DNA of 64,000 nucleotides from Flavobacterium sp. N2038 (GTDB taxonomy: Bacteria; Bacteroidota; Bacteroidia; Flavobacteriales; Flavobacteriaceae): NCBI RefSeq assembly GCF_025947185.1, contig NZ_CP110001.1, positions 682,001 through 746,000 of the forward strand, in the 5' to 3' direction. The position numbers were made by a program, and so were the translations under genes. How positions within the stretch are numbered: the first letter of the stretch is position 1; every line of letters begins with the position of its first letter. The notes beneath the pieces were generated by a model. It worked only from the letters and a program-made list of their open reading frames with translations. It was not told where the DNA came from and did no database searches. Below are positions 48,464-52,116 of this stretch, one piece after another.

Positions 48464-49822
48464 ATGCAACTGTATAACACTTTGAGCGCAGAAGAAAGAG
48501 CCATCATGATCGATGATGCAGGTCAACAACGTCTTACGTTGTCTTTCTATGCGTACGCCAAAATTCAAGATCCCAAAAAATTTCGCGATGATTTATTTGT
48601 AGCCTGGAATGCACTTGATGCATTAGGTCGAATTTATGTTGCCAACGAAGGAATAAATGCTCAGATGAGTGTTCCTGCCGAAAATTTTGAAGCTTTCAGA
48701 GAAACACTGGAAGTTTATGATTTCATGAAAGGCCTACGATTGAATGTTGCTGTAGAACATGATGATCACTCATTTTTAAAATTAACGATCAAAGTACGAC
48801 ACAAAATAGTTGCCGATGGTTTAAACGACGATACTTTTGATGTTACCAATATAGGCGTTCACCTTAAAGCCAAAGAATTCAATGATATCCTTGATGATCC
48901 AAATACGATCGTAGTAGATTTTAGAAATCATTACGAAAGTGAAGTTGGGCATTTTAAAAATGCTATTACTCCAGATGTTGAAACATTTAGAGAAAGTTTA
49001 CCAATTATCAACGAACAGCTTCAAAATCATAAAGACGATAAAAATCTAGTAATGTATTGTACCGGAGGAATTCGTTGTGAAAAAGCGAGTGCTTACTTCA
49101 AACATCAGGGCTTTAAGAATGTTTATCAATTAGAGGGTGGAATCATCAACTATGCAAAACAACTTAAAGAAGAAGGTTTAGAAAGTAAATTCATTGGGAA
49201 AAACTTTGTGTTTGATAATCGCTTAGGCGAAAGAATTACAGACGATATTATTTCTCAATGTCACCAATGCGGAAAACCTTGTGATAACCACACAAATTGT
49301 GAAAACGACGGTTGTCATTTGTTGTTTATTCAATGTGATGATTGTAAAGTGGCAATGGAAAACTGTTGTTCTACAGAATGTCTGGAGGTTATACACATGC
49401 CTTTGGTTGATCAGGTTCGTTTAAGAACTGGGAAACAGGTTGGAAACAAGGTGTTTAGAAAAGGGAAATCTGAAAATTTAAAATTCAAACATTCAGGCGA
49501 ATTGCTAGAGACTGCTTTGGCTACAGCACAAAAAACAGCTGACATTCGTCAGAAAATAAAGGTAAAGAAAGTACTTCTTGGAAAAGCAGAACATTATTAT
49601 GTAAAAGCACAAGTGGGGCAATTTACTATAGAAAATCACGAATTAAACAGTGGTGATAAAATTCTTATTTCTGGCCCGACAACGGGAGATCAGGAATTGG
49701 TTTTAGATAGAATCATTGTTGACGGCGCAGAAACTCAATCTGCTAAAATTGGTGATAAGGTTACTTTTGAGGTTCCTTTTCGTATTCGTTTGTCAGATAA
49801 ATTGTATAAAATTGTAAATTAG
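48464..49822 (+). CDS. trhO: tRNA uridine(34) hydroxylase with a C-terminal TrhP-like domain
   Basis: A 452-residue protein, about 100 residues longer than E. coli TrhO. Residues 1-115 are the N-terminal ferredoxin-like domain (GRIYVANEGINAQMS), 130-240 the rhodanese domain with catalytic Cys 199 in CTGGIRCEK, and 266-306 a Cys-rich zinc-like segment. It uses O2 to make 5-hydroxyuridine at tRNA position 34. The last 84 residues (369-452) match the C-terminal domain of TrhP, encoded 0.8 kb downstream, at 45 of 84 positions without gaps (shared GDKIL, TG.QE, PFRIR.SDKLYKIV). This extension is absent from the E. coli and Bacillus proteins as I know them. Confidence 0.93.
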   Translation: MQLYNTLSAEERAIMIDDAGQQRLTLSFYAYAKIQDPKKFRDDLFVAWNALDALGRIYVANEGINAQMSVPAENFEAFRETLEVYDFMKGLRLNVAVEHDDHSFLKLTIKVRHKIVADGLNDDTFDVTNIGVHLKAKEFNDILDDPNTIVVDFRNHYESEVGHFKNAITPDVETFRESLPIINEQLQNHKDDKNLVMYCTGGIRCEKASAYFKHQGFKNVYQLEGGIINYAKQLKEEGLESKFIGKNFVFDNRLGERITDDIISQCHQCGKPCDNHTNCENDGCHLLFIQCDDCKVAMENCCSTECLEVIHMPLVDQVRLRTGKQVGNKVFRKGKSENLKFKHSGELLETALATAQKTADIRQKIKVKKVLLGKAEHYYVKAQVGQFTIENHELNSGDKILISGPTTGDQELVLDRIIVDGAETQSAKIGDKVTFEVPFRIRLSDKLYKIVN

Positions 49823-49845
49823 CAAAATTTTTATCTAATTTATTT

Positions 49846-50280
49846 ATGTCACAATCGTTTACCAAATTATGAATTCATGTAATTTGGGCTACCAAAAATC
49901 GTCAGGATCTAATTGATTTTTCAATAGAGAAAATCCTTTACGATTACATTTGGCAAGAGTTAACAGAACTTGGGTGTCCAGTTAGAATCATTAATGGAAT
50001 GCCAGATCATGTGCATGTTTTATTTTTACAAAATCCGCAAAAAACGATTACAGATATTGTAAAGCAAATAAAAGGAAGTTCTTCTCATTTTATGAATAGG
50101 GGAGAATTTATTCTTGAAAAATTTGCCTGGCAAACTGGTTTTGGTGCTTTCTCTGTTAGCGAATCTCAGTTAGATACTGTTTTCAATTACATTAAAAATC
50201 AAAAGCAACATCATCTTAAGAAAAATGGACAAGATGAATTTGATGATTTTGTGAAATTACACGGGTTGGGAGATAAATGA
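49846..50280 (+). pseudogene. IS200-like / REP-associated tyrosine transposase with an in-frame TGA
   Basis: The frame from ATG 49846 to TGA 50280 would encode a 144-residue Y1 (HUH) transposase, but codon 9 (49870-49872) is TGA where relatives have Trp: it reads MSQSFTKL-stop-IHVIWATKNRQ. Downstream, the HUH motif DHVHVLF (His 55, His 57), catalytic Tyr 115 in VFNYIKNQKQHH and Gln 119 remain. No alternative start exists before ATG 49999, which would lose the first core strands. It is therefore a single-mutation relic. It lies between trhO and trhP and is followed 17 bp later by paired palindromes. Confidence 0.85.
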
Positions 50281-50297
50281 TTGCTTTAGATATGTTC

Positions 50298-50515
50298 CCC
50301 GTGGTTGAAACCACGGGCTATATTTGAAAAGCATACGCAAAGAAAACATAGCCTGCGGTTTCAACCGCAGGGCGCAAAGAATATCCACAACTATAATATA
50401 TGTATGAGAGTAATTTGTAAAAATGCCAATCAATACGTTTCCCGTGGTTAAAACCACGGGCTTTATTTGACAAAACATACGCAAAAAAAATATAGCCTGC
50501 GGTTTCAGCCGCAGG
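50298..50515. repeat. Four REP-like palindromes in two tandem ~144-bp units
   Basis: Perfect or near-perfect 20-bp palindromes alternate: CCCGTGGTTGAAACCACGGG (50298-50317), CCTGCGGTTTCAACCGCAGG (50352-50371), CCCGTGGTTAAAACCACGGG (50441-50460), CCTGCGGTTTCAGCCGCAGG (50496-50515). The intervening TTTGA...CATACGCAAA...ATAGCCTGC text is shared, and the sequence after each unit is also related, so this is a diverged tandem duplication (period 143-144 bp). It fills the 364-bp gap to trhP. Confidence 0.93.
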
Positions 50516-50614
50516 AACACAACGGATATCGACAACGATTATTAATACTTCTACGAATAATTTTTAAAATATAGACTATGATAAAAATCATAGGAATCTA
50601 ATCTATACCCACAT

Positions 50615-50622
50615 TATTTTTG
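50615..50622 (+). promoter_or_regulatory. -7 promoter element of trhP
   Basis: TATTTTTG fits TAnnTTTG, 22 bp before the trhP ATG at 50645. It lies downstream of the palindromic repeats, so trhP can be expressed independently of trhO. Confidence 0.55.
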
Positions 50623-50644
50623 TCATTTGAATAATAAATCAAAA

Positions 50645-51886
50645 ATGACATTTAACAATACAATTGAACTCATGGCTCCTGCTGGAGATTTTGAGTCACT
50701 TCAGGCTGCTTTAGATAATGGCTGTGATTCTGTTTATTTTGGAGTCGAACAGTTGAATATGCGCGCACGTTCAACGGTTAATTTTACTATAGAAGATTTA
50801 AAAGAAATTGCTAATCGATGCGAGGTAAAAAATGTTAGAAGCTATCTGACTTTAAACACGATTATTTATGATCATGATTTATCTGTCGTAAAAACATTAT
50901 TGACAAAAGCCAAAGAGGCTAATATTACCGCAGTAATTGCATCGGATCAAGCGGTAATTGCTATGGCAAGATCGATTGGAATGGAAGTTCATATTTCAAC
51001 TCAGCTTAATGTAACCAATATTGAAACTATAAAATTTTATAGTTTATTTGCCGATACCATGGTTTTAAGCCGTGAATTAAGTTTACGTCAGGTAAAGAAT
51101 ATTACGGCTCAAATTGAGAAAGAGCAGATAAAAGGCCCAAACGGTAATTTAGTTGAAATCGAAATTTTTGGCCATGGAGCTTTGTGTATGGCAGTTTCAG
51201 GAAAATGTTATTTGAGTTTGCATTCACATAATTCATCTGCAAATCGCGGCGCCTGTAAACAAAACTGCCGTAAAAAATATACTGTTATCGATCAGGAAAC
51301 CGGTTTTGAAATCGAACTTGATAACGAATACATGATGTCACCGAAAGATTTATGTACGCTTGATTTCTTAGATCAGGTAATTGATTCCGGAATTCAGGTT
51401 TTAAAAATCGAAGGGCGCGGCCGCGCACCCGAATATGTGGCAACGGTTATCAAAACCTACCGTGAAGCCATTGACGCATATTATGATGGAACATTCACAA
51501 AAGAGAAAACCGCAGTTTGGATGGAAGCTTTAAATACGGTTTACAATCGTGGTTTCTGGTCGGGTTATTACTTAGGTCAGGAATTGGGAGAATGGAGTGA
51601 TATTCCGGGTTCTGCGGCAACTCAGAAAAAAGTTTATGTTGGAAAAGGGACACATTATTTCCCAAAAGCCAATGTTGGCCAATTTAAAATAGAAGCTTAC
51701 GATATTAAAATCGGAGATAAAATTCTGGTAACAGGACCAAGCACAGGAGCTCAGGAAATGATTATCGACGAAATGTTTGTAAATGATCTTACGGCAGAAA
51801 AAGCAACAAAAGGCGATGATTGTACTTTTAAACTTCCATTCAGAATCAGAATGTCGGACAAATTATATAAAATTGTTGAGGCGTAA
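50645..51886 (+). CDS. trhP: tRNA 5-hydroxyuridine synthesis protein TrhP (peptidase U32 family)
   Basis: A 413-residue U32-family protein. The N-terminus IELMAPAGDFESLQAALDNG and the four-cysteine set in FGHGALCMAVSGKC...NRGACKQNC (Cys 181, 188, 204, 208) are diagnostic and should bind an iron-sulfur cluster. TrhP makes 5-hydroxyuridine at tRNA position 34 by the O2-independent, prephenate-dependent route. Residues 329-413 are the U32 C-terminal domain, which is also fused to TrhO upstream. The stop overlaps the ferredoxin start by one base. ATG 50645 is chosen over a TTG at 50627. Confidence 0.93.
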   Translation: MTFNNTIELMAPAGDFESLQAALDNGCDSVYFGVEQLNMRARSTVNFTIEDLKEIANRCEVKNVRSYLTLNTIIYDHDLSVVKTLLTKAKEANITAVIASDQAVIAMARSIGMEVHISTQLNVTNIETIKFYSLFADTMVLSRELSLRQVKNITAQIEKEQIKGPNGNLVEIEIFGHGALCMAVSGKCYLSLHSHNSSANRGACKQNCRKKYTVIDQETGFEIELDNEYMMSPKDLCTLDFLDQVIDSGIQVLKIEGRGRAPEYVATVIKTYREAIDAYYDGTFTKEKTAVWMEALNTVYNRGFWSGYYLGQELGEWSDIPGSAATQKKVYVGKGTHYFPKANVGQFKIEAYDIKIGDKILVTGPSTGAQEMIIDEMFVNDLTAEKATKGDDCTFKLPFRIRMSDKLYKIVEA

Positions 51887-52116
51887 TGGTTATTGTTACT
51901 TTACAAAGAGATAAATGCATTGGCTGTAATTACTGCGTTGAAATGGATCCGGTTCATTTTCAAATGTCAAAAAAAGATGGAAAATCGGTATTGCTTCATT
52001 CGCAGAATGCAAAAGGGTTTTTTACTTTGAAATCGCCGAATCATGCTATTGTAGAAAGTTGCGAATTGGCAGCTAAAGCATGTCCGGTAAAGATTATTAC
52101 GGTTAAGGAAACATAG
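51886..52116 (+). CDS. 4Fe-4S ferredoxin coupled to trhP
   Basis: A 76-residue single-cluster ferredoxin: CIGCNYC (Cys 11, 14, 17) near the N-terminus and the closing CELAAKACP (Cys 59 and 66) near the C-terminus. It overlaps the trhP stop by one base (TAATG), so it is probably the electron donor for the TrhP iron-sulfur enzyme; this link is inferred from coupling. Confidence 0.9.
   Translation: MVIVTLQRDKCIGCNYCVEMDPVHFQMSKKDGKSVLLHSQNAKGFFTLKSPNHAIVESCELAAKACPVKIITVKET

Follow-up and report, generated by a model that had tools for sequence, protein, structure and literature searches.

Results

TrhO and the neighboring U32-family protein end in the same domain

We analyzed a 64,000-nucleotide stretch of the genome of Flavobacterium sp. 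N2038 (contig NZ_CP110001.1, positions 682,001 to 746,000; hereafter the window, with positions counted from its first letter). It contains trhO, whose product is predicted to be a rhodanese-type, O2-dependent hydroxylase of uridine 34 (U34) of tRNA, and, downstream on the same strand, a gene for a U32-family protein. TrhP, a U32-type, prephenate-dependent enzyme, provides an alternative route to the same product, 5-hydroxyuridine (ho5U). We found that the window TrhO carries an additional C-terminal domain, here called the tail, that it shares with the U32 protein. The genome is a single 4.67-Mb contig. Its TrhO scores above the cut-off of the NCBIfam equivalog model for TrhO, NF001133 (265.6 bits against 170), and named Flavobacterium proteins match it at up to 93% identity. 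The two genes and their parts are as follows.

48464..49822, + strand: trhO, 452 amino acids; TrhO body, linker and putatively copied C-terminal barrel (NF001133; PF17773, PF00581 and PF12368 above cut-offs)
48536..48808, + strand: UPF0176 acylphosphatase-like domain of TrhO, residues 25–115 (PF17773, E 1.5e-22)
48869..49156, + strand: rhodanese catalytic domain of TrhO, residues 136–231 (PF00581, E 9.9e-13)
49058..49075, + strand: CTGGIR active-site loop of TrhO, residues 199–204, read from the sequence
49196..49381, + strand: Rhodanese_C domain of TrhO, residues 245–306 (PF12368, E 5.5e-21)
49490..49564, + strand: basic linker from TrhO body to tail, boundary approximate; untailed relatives stop at about its start
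49565..49822, + strand: putatively copied tail domain of TrhO, residues 368–452, predicted beta-barrel
50645..51886, + strand: U32-family protein, 413 amino acids, candidate TrhP and member of the probable tail donor family (PF01136, E 7.9e-70)
51626..51886, + strand: native tail domain of the U32 protein, residues 328–413 (BLASTP block; predicted strands)

The CTGGIR loop was unchanged in all nine tailed TrhO of one alignment (A7). Across 112 tailed TrhO the linker, counted from an FxKGxS motif, is 26–45 residues long, with a mean net charge of +3.3. The U32 open reading frame (ORF) has 419 codons; we counted 413 from the ATG at 50645.

BLASTP aligned TrhO residues 368–451 with U32 residues 328–411 (334–417 in the 419-residue ORF) as one gap-free block with 46 of 84 residues identical, 75% positive and E 1e-28, while the second-best segment between the two proteins reached only E 0.89. 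A preliminary description of this DNA had counted 45 of 84 identities; its block (369–452 against 329–412) was shifted by one residue, which explains the difference, and the alignment itself is confirmed. It was also right that the catalytic parts are unrelated: they fall in different Pfam families, rhodanese-type and U32. When the tail was used as a query against the whole genome, trhO and the U32 gene were the only matches at E <= 1.

The same description had proposed a search with a profile hidden Markov model (HMM) of the U32 C-terminal domain. To the letter, the outcome was negative: Peptidase_U32_C (PF16325) matched neither protein in the window, and nothing in the whole genome even at E <= 10. 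As even the U32 protein goes undetected by this model, it does not cover the Bacteroidota branch; it was over its cut-off in 2 of the 99 genomes of this branch sampled, and among 16 U32 relatives it gave a match, always below threshold, in 9 (best E 0.0052), a weak contact with the tails of distant relatives. We therefore built a tail HMM from 22 U32 tails and no TrhO rows. This U32-only profile matched all 112 tailed TrhO (worst E 7.3e-25) and all 57 U32 proteins (the 22 training rows included), but none of 10 untailed TrhO. Nor did it match E. coli TrhO, which lacks the domain as previously stated. Alignments A2 and A3 comprise 22 of the 38 U32 tails and 15 of the 32 TrhO tails listed. A Pfam G5 match on TrhO residues 387–434 (13.4 bits against a cut-off of 23, E 0.096) was set aside as chance. 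On the strength of these alignments and profile matches, we conclude that the two tails are homologous.

Tailed TrhO is found in Flavobacterium and some Weeksellaceae

We surveyed 392 genomes of the phylum, reading the tail state among the TrhO matches listed (E up to about 4e-52). Among these, 35 TrhO reached the end of the query: 26 from the same genus, including the window's own, one from another genus of the same family and eight from a family labeled f5. Every Flavobacterium-genus TrhO sampled was tailed. For Flavobacterium johnsoniae, the records include a TrhO of 462 amino acids. Other genera of the same family contributed 18 untailed TrhO, which stop at residues 343–354, and the short TrhO of other families among the matches listed had no tail either. 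Named records with a tailed TrhO belonged to Flavobacterium and to Weeksellaceae (Chryseobacterium, Kaistella, Epilithonimonas and Elizabethkingia); the 80 loci with named records were picked by likeness to the tailed query and do not form a survey, and the locus sets partly overlap, some entries looking like the same genomes. L130, L141 and L160, from metagenome bins labeled Rhizobium, Chitinophaga pinensis and Sphingobacterium thalpophilum, also have a tailed TrhO and may be mislabeled bins or transfers.

The U32 family is more widespread, with 169 of the 392 genomes matching at E <= 1e-60 and every match listed extending into the tail. One family, f29, has many genomes with a U32 protein, yet contributes none of the 244 genomes that matched TrhO or its tail (E <= 1e-10), the pattern that TrhO and U32 proteins would give if they were alternative routes split by oxygen.

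The tail most likely came from a Flavobacterium-type U32 gene

In a tree of TrhO bodies (42 rows) the tailed proteins formed one clade with support of 100/100, so that a single gain suffices. In a tree of tails (70 rows; L001–L006 were left out of both trees) the TrhO tails lay among U32 tails, those of Flavobacterium being nearest, in a 44-row group supported at 90/91. A larger tail tree of 169 rows placed all 112 TrhO tails on one side of a branch with Shimodaira–Hasegawa-like approximate likelihood ratio test (SH-aLRT) support of 96, adjoined by 16 Flavobacterium U32 tails (SH-aLRT 79). In four loci of other genera (L019, L020, L021 and L023), an untailed trhO lies 3–10 bp upstream of a U32 gene; in a fifth locus with these two genes the order is reversed. 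The trhO–U32 tandem is thus probably older than the tail. Where a genome has both a tailed trhO and a U32 gene, the two are on the same strand, trhO first and less than 2 kb apart (17 of 17).

These trees point to a Flavobacterium-type U32 gene as the source of the tail, most likely through a single event, in agreement with the earlier suggestion of a domain copied between neighbors; one origin is favored by the trees rather than proven. With trhO and the U32 gene probably already in tandem, a local duplication with a deletion could have fused the U32 3′ end to trhO, and this would be the simplest route. Recent gene conversion between the two tails is not a general explanation of their likeness, since the pair from the locus itself had the highest DNA similarity in just 4 of 32 loci; these figures were not used for Weeksellaceae loci in which a one-residue insertion in the U32 tail puts the pair out of register. 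A possible exception is L128, with a silent-site identity of 0.73.

Some TrhO tails are closer to the U32 tail than to the window TrhO tail, which may mean that they evolved more slowly on a branch near the origin, or that copying occurred twice. The loci of this U32-like subgroup are as follows.

L012, L032, L033, L035, L036, L101, L102, L105, L106, L108
L110, L125, L128, L134, L136, L141, L156, L161, L170, L172

The f5 TrhO, which on our assignment are from Weeksellaceae, nest inside the Flavobacterium TrhO (24-row group, 95/94). The Weeksellaceae U32 bodies form their own group with one row from a viral collection (99*), outside the 23 Flavobacterium-type U32 rows (99*), in a tree from which five distant U32 rows (L055–L059) were left out. 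Therefore, the tailed trhO probably moved into Weeksellaceae, replacing the trhO beside a resident U32 gene. The Weeksellaceae loci with U32 bodies apart from those of Flavobacterium are L124, L132, L137, L157, L162, L165, L017 and L018, the last two assigned to this family by us; in L017 and L018, TrhO falls within Flavobacterium, which would fit a replacement of trhO alone.

The tail is predicted to adopt the U32 C-terminal fold

Structure models of the TrhO tail and of the U32 protein both matched the same solved U32 C-terminal domain (PDB 4he5/4he6), which places the modeled TrhO tail in the U32 C-terminal fold and bears out the proposal that the two tails are folded alike. The U32 tail model, built without any TrhO sequence, superimposed on 4he6 with a root-mean-square deviation of 1.4 over 81 columns, its predicted strands in register with those of the TrhO tail. 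Model alignment A8 comprises 74 of 101 tail references. Searching the PDB by sequence, with either the TrhO tail or the U32 protein as query, returned nothing at E <= 1. The modeled TrhO tail also matched the barrels of IF2, EF-Tu and eEF1A, at 8–24% identity in the rows listed. The likeness is one of fold only; the window proteins gave no match to the EF-Tu domain 2 family (PF03144). We conclude that the TrhO tail, as modeled, is a domain with the U32 C-terminal fold, which resembles domain II of translation factors.

Two distant Bacteroidota U32 tails matched PF03144 better than Peptidase_U32_C, under both cut-offs: L055 (residues 335–386; 28.3 bits against a cut-off of 30.3, E 2.4e-6) and L070 (residues 333–385; E 2.2e-4).

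Selection maintains the tail with or without the U32 gene

We compared the ratio of nonsynonymous to synonymous substitution (dN/dS) in 187 pairs of tailed TrhO, namely those among all pairs of the 112 proteins that were equal in length and whose silent distance lay within set limits; the pairs are not independent. The median was 0.088 for the tail and 0.030 for the body. In 83 pairs without adjacent U32 genes the values were 0.072 and 0.028. A U32 match at E <= 1e-60 was present in 17 and absent in 18 of the 35 genomes with a tailed TrhO. Among the matches listed, all 26 same-genus genomes had a tailed TrhO, and 11 of them lacked a U32 match at this threshold. Judging from substitution patterns and gene content, the tail is kept by selection even where the U32 gene is absent. 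Its presence without the U32 gene and its low dN/dS argue that it is retained for TrhO itself, independently of the donor enzyme and the ferredoxin encoded beside it.

The U32 protein is a candidate TrhP with a linked ferredoxin

The genes are further apart in the window than in many relatives, where the tandem is almost back to back. The preliminary description spoke of neighboring genes, which holds for the tandem; in the window they are not adjacent, as an 822-bp gap contains a broken transposase and two repeat units. The gap and the downstream gene comprise the following features.

49846..50280, + strand: remnant of an IS200-type insertion sequence transposase whose codon 9 is an in-frame stop, located between the two tandem genes
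50290..50515, + strand: repetitive extragenic palindrome (REP)-like unit of two palindromes, in two copies 143–144 bp apart, adjoining the transposase remnant
51886..52116, + strand: single-cluster ferredoxin, 76 amino acids (PF13370, E 3.9e-12)

The open part of the transposase remnant (49999–50280) matched PF01797 with E 1.9e-16, and the remnant scored below the cut-offs of the NCBIfam IS200 and REP-associated models. The palindromes of the REP-like unit are CCCGTGGTTNAAACCACGGG and CCTGCGGTTTCANCCGCAGG.

The ferredoxin had been described as coupled to the U32 gene, and indeed the final base of the U32 stop codon is also the first base of its ORF; in 50 of 57 U32 loci, a ferredoxin ORF follows the U32 gene at a distance of no more than about 300 bp. 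This fits the [4Fe-4S] clusters reported for E. coli TrhP (PMC11138216) and for UbiU and UbiV, which belong to the same family as the U32 protein and act in O2-independent hydroxylation (PMC10470549).

The name TrhP, given to the U32 protein at first, stands only as a candidate assignment. The protein shares 26.5% identity with E. coli TrhP over residues 8–336 and failed the NCBIfam TrhP equivalog NF011996 (194.6 bits against a cut-off of 534), a result that speaks against the name. E162, C170 and C177, described as essential in E. coli TrhP (PMC6599085), align to E173, C181 and C188 of the U32 protein, so that the essential residues are kept. According to the same source, TrhP of the yegQ type occurs mainly in gamma- and beta-proteobacteria, RNA hydroxylation may extend to other U32 subfamilies, and residues of the CTGGIR loop are essential in E. 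coli TrhO.

The only other U32 protein of the genome (L091, 1279–3153) has 624 amino acids and a DUF3656 architecture, which we take to be RlhA-like; by eye, the segment that joins its U32 domain to DUF3656 resembles another barrel. The make-up of this second protein and the place of the first beside trhO speak indirectly for the candidate TrhP. No protein of the genome scored over the CmoB model cut-off, and one was a strong PF01596 O-methyltransferase, a member of the family that includes B. subtilis TrmR. It passed no NCBIfam model cut-off and is at most a candidate TrmR. The lack of a CmoB match and the presence of this protein would make 5-methoxyuridine (mo5U) a more likely end product of the pathway than uridine 5-oxyacetic acid (cmo5U).

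Discussion

In Flavobacterium and some Weeksellaceae, TrhO is a known enzyme in a new domain architecture, as read from its sequence; its function is plausible and predicted. The observation that TrhO and the U32 protein share a C-terminal domain is confirmed, and its first interpretation is partly supported; the proposed service of both oxygen regimes by the locus stands as a hypothesis. We favor, with some confidence, a reading in which this TrhO is a rhodanese-type U34 hydroxylase joined by a linker to a copied U32 barrel that binds the substrate tRNA. In the tandem, a local duplication with a deletion would have joined the U32 3′ end to trhO. The barrel would bind the tRNA, most likely outside the anticodon, and keep it in place for the flexibly linked rhodanese loop to hydroxylate U34 with O2. 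The barrel of the U32 enzyme would play the same role in an Fe-S, prephenate-dependent reaction, with the neighboring ferredoxin as putative electron carrier.

EF-Tu uses its domain II to bind the acceptor end of tRNA. By analogy, the matches of the modeled fold to IF2, EF-Tu and eEF1A, the near-cut-off PF03144 score in a relative and the basic linker are what we count in support of tRNA binding. The barrel most likely grips tRNA, which should be the sole thing common to both enzymes.

Several observations weigh against this reading. Since proteins and rRNA are also among the ligands of domain-II barrels, the ligand cannot be read from the fold. The net charge of the TrhO tails is modest (mean +2.0, range −1 to +7), and the alignment for its structure model also contained U32 tails. 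In the 70-row tree the TrhO tails fell in two groups, and a single origin was neither rejected nor required (approximately unbiased (AU) test, p 0.455); the 169-row tree was a quick one without bootstraps. With the U32-only profile, E. coli TrhP reached E 2.9, against 0.41 for the best of 859 background ORFs, and profile comparisons of Bacteroidota tails with three E. coli-type tails were weak (probabilities 12 and 9); thus, sequence alone does not link the tail to that of E. coli TrhP, whereas the fold does. Finally, E. coli TrhO, which is untailed, makes ho5U34 in vitro (PMC6599085), so the tail is neither the catalyst nor essential to the chemistry.

The main rival takes the barrel for a protein-docking module that tethers TrhO and the U32 enzyme to a common partner, such as the ribosome, a translation factor or the next enzyme on ho5U, instead of tRNA. 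Barrels of this type do bind proteins and the ribosome, and the presence of the PF01596 O-methyltransferase without a CmoB over cut-off makes a common downstream partner conceivable. No specific partner was identified, however, the methyltransferase is at most a candidate TrmR, and a partner encoded at the locus (the U32 protein or the ferredoxin) is disfavored by the 18 of 35 genomes that keep the tail without a U32 match. We regard protein docking as unlikely, though it is the strongest of the alternatives to tRNA binding.

Two separate copyings, one for most tails (group A) and one for the more U32-like group B (L012, L032, L033, L035, L036 and others), seem improbable. The groups do stand apart in the 70-row tree (100/99 and 100/100), group B adjoining the Flavobacterium U32 tails there at 85/4, and by BLAST bits 20 of the 112 tailed TrhO are closer to the U32 tail than to the window TrhO tail. 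Set against this, the TrhO bodies of both groups form the one fully supported clade, the AU test did not reject one origin, the 169-row tree keeps all TrhO tails on one side of a branch, and gene conversion, with L128 as a possible exception, is not general.

Still less probable is a tail that merely hitchhikes, at most adding stability. E. coli TrhO works without one (PMC6599085), and the tail's dN/dS, about three times that of the body, shows weaker constraint, but a ratio of 0.088 signifies strong purifying selection, no loss was seen in the 26 same-genus genomes, and the tailed gene seems to have replaced trhO in Weeksellaceae. That the tail is ancestral to TrhO and was lost elsewhere is rejected as highly improbable: all sampled Flavobacterium TrhO are tailed, but the 18 same-family untailed TrhO, the short TrhO of other families among the matches listed and E. 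coli TrhO are not, the body tree needs one gain, and TrhO tails lie among U32 tails, the reverse of what this predicts.

Compared with known systems, the window TrhO has the same UPF0176_N, rhodanese and Rhodanese_C domains and CTGGIR loop as TrhO (YceA) of E. coli and its relatives, but adds a linker and an 84-residue predicted barrel to what in E. coli is an untailed protein of 350 amino acids. E. coli TrhP (YegQ) and the window U32 protein have the same layout, a U32 catalytic domain in which the essential Glu and Cys residues align and a C-terminal domain after it, but the two C-terminal domains show hardly any sequence similarity (hhalign probability 12). The solved C-terminal domain from Geobacillus thermoleovorans (4he5, 4he6), 20% identical to the tail, sits on a U32 domain, whereas the window tail sits on a rhodanese-type enzyme. 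The likeness to domain II of EF-Tu, eEF1A, IF2 and SelB is one of fold, and the window TrhO has no GTPase domain. PMC6599085 reports yceA–trmR fusions in Phytophthora and Phaeodactylum, in which, as in tailed TrhO, TrhO is joined to a second part of the same pathway; there, the whole next enzyme is fused, while the window TrhO gained only an accessory domain, apparently from the alternative enzyme. A literature search, with most subscription journals outside its reach, found no work on TrhO of this architecture. The Pfam U32 C-terminal model misses most of the sampled Bacteroidota branch, and the TrhO and U32 tails are therefore unannotated.

To our knowledge, tRNA recognition by U32 hydroxylases and by TrhO is little understood. 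Two enzymes predicted to make one modification share a copied domain with a clear donor and selection to keep the tail, and such a natural transplant of one domain between TrhO and a U32 enzyme offers a direct test of tRNA recognition. We suggest tentatively, as a scenario somewhat short of an even chance in its entirety, that an oxygen-using enzyme took over the tRNA-gripping barrel of its oxygen-independent neighbor, and that the improved fusion spread to another family and outlived its donor in many genomes. If so, separately evolved enzymes for the same modification would have become alike through one common tRNA-gripping barrel.

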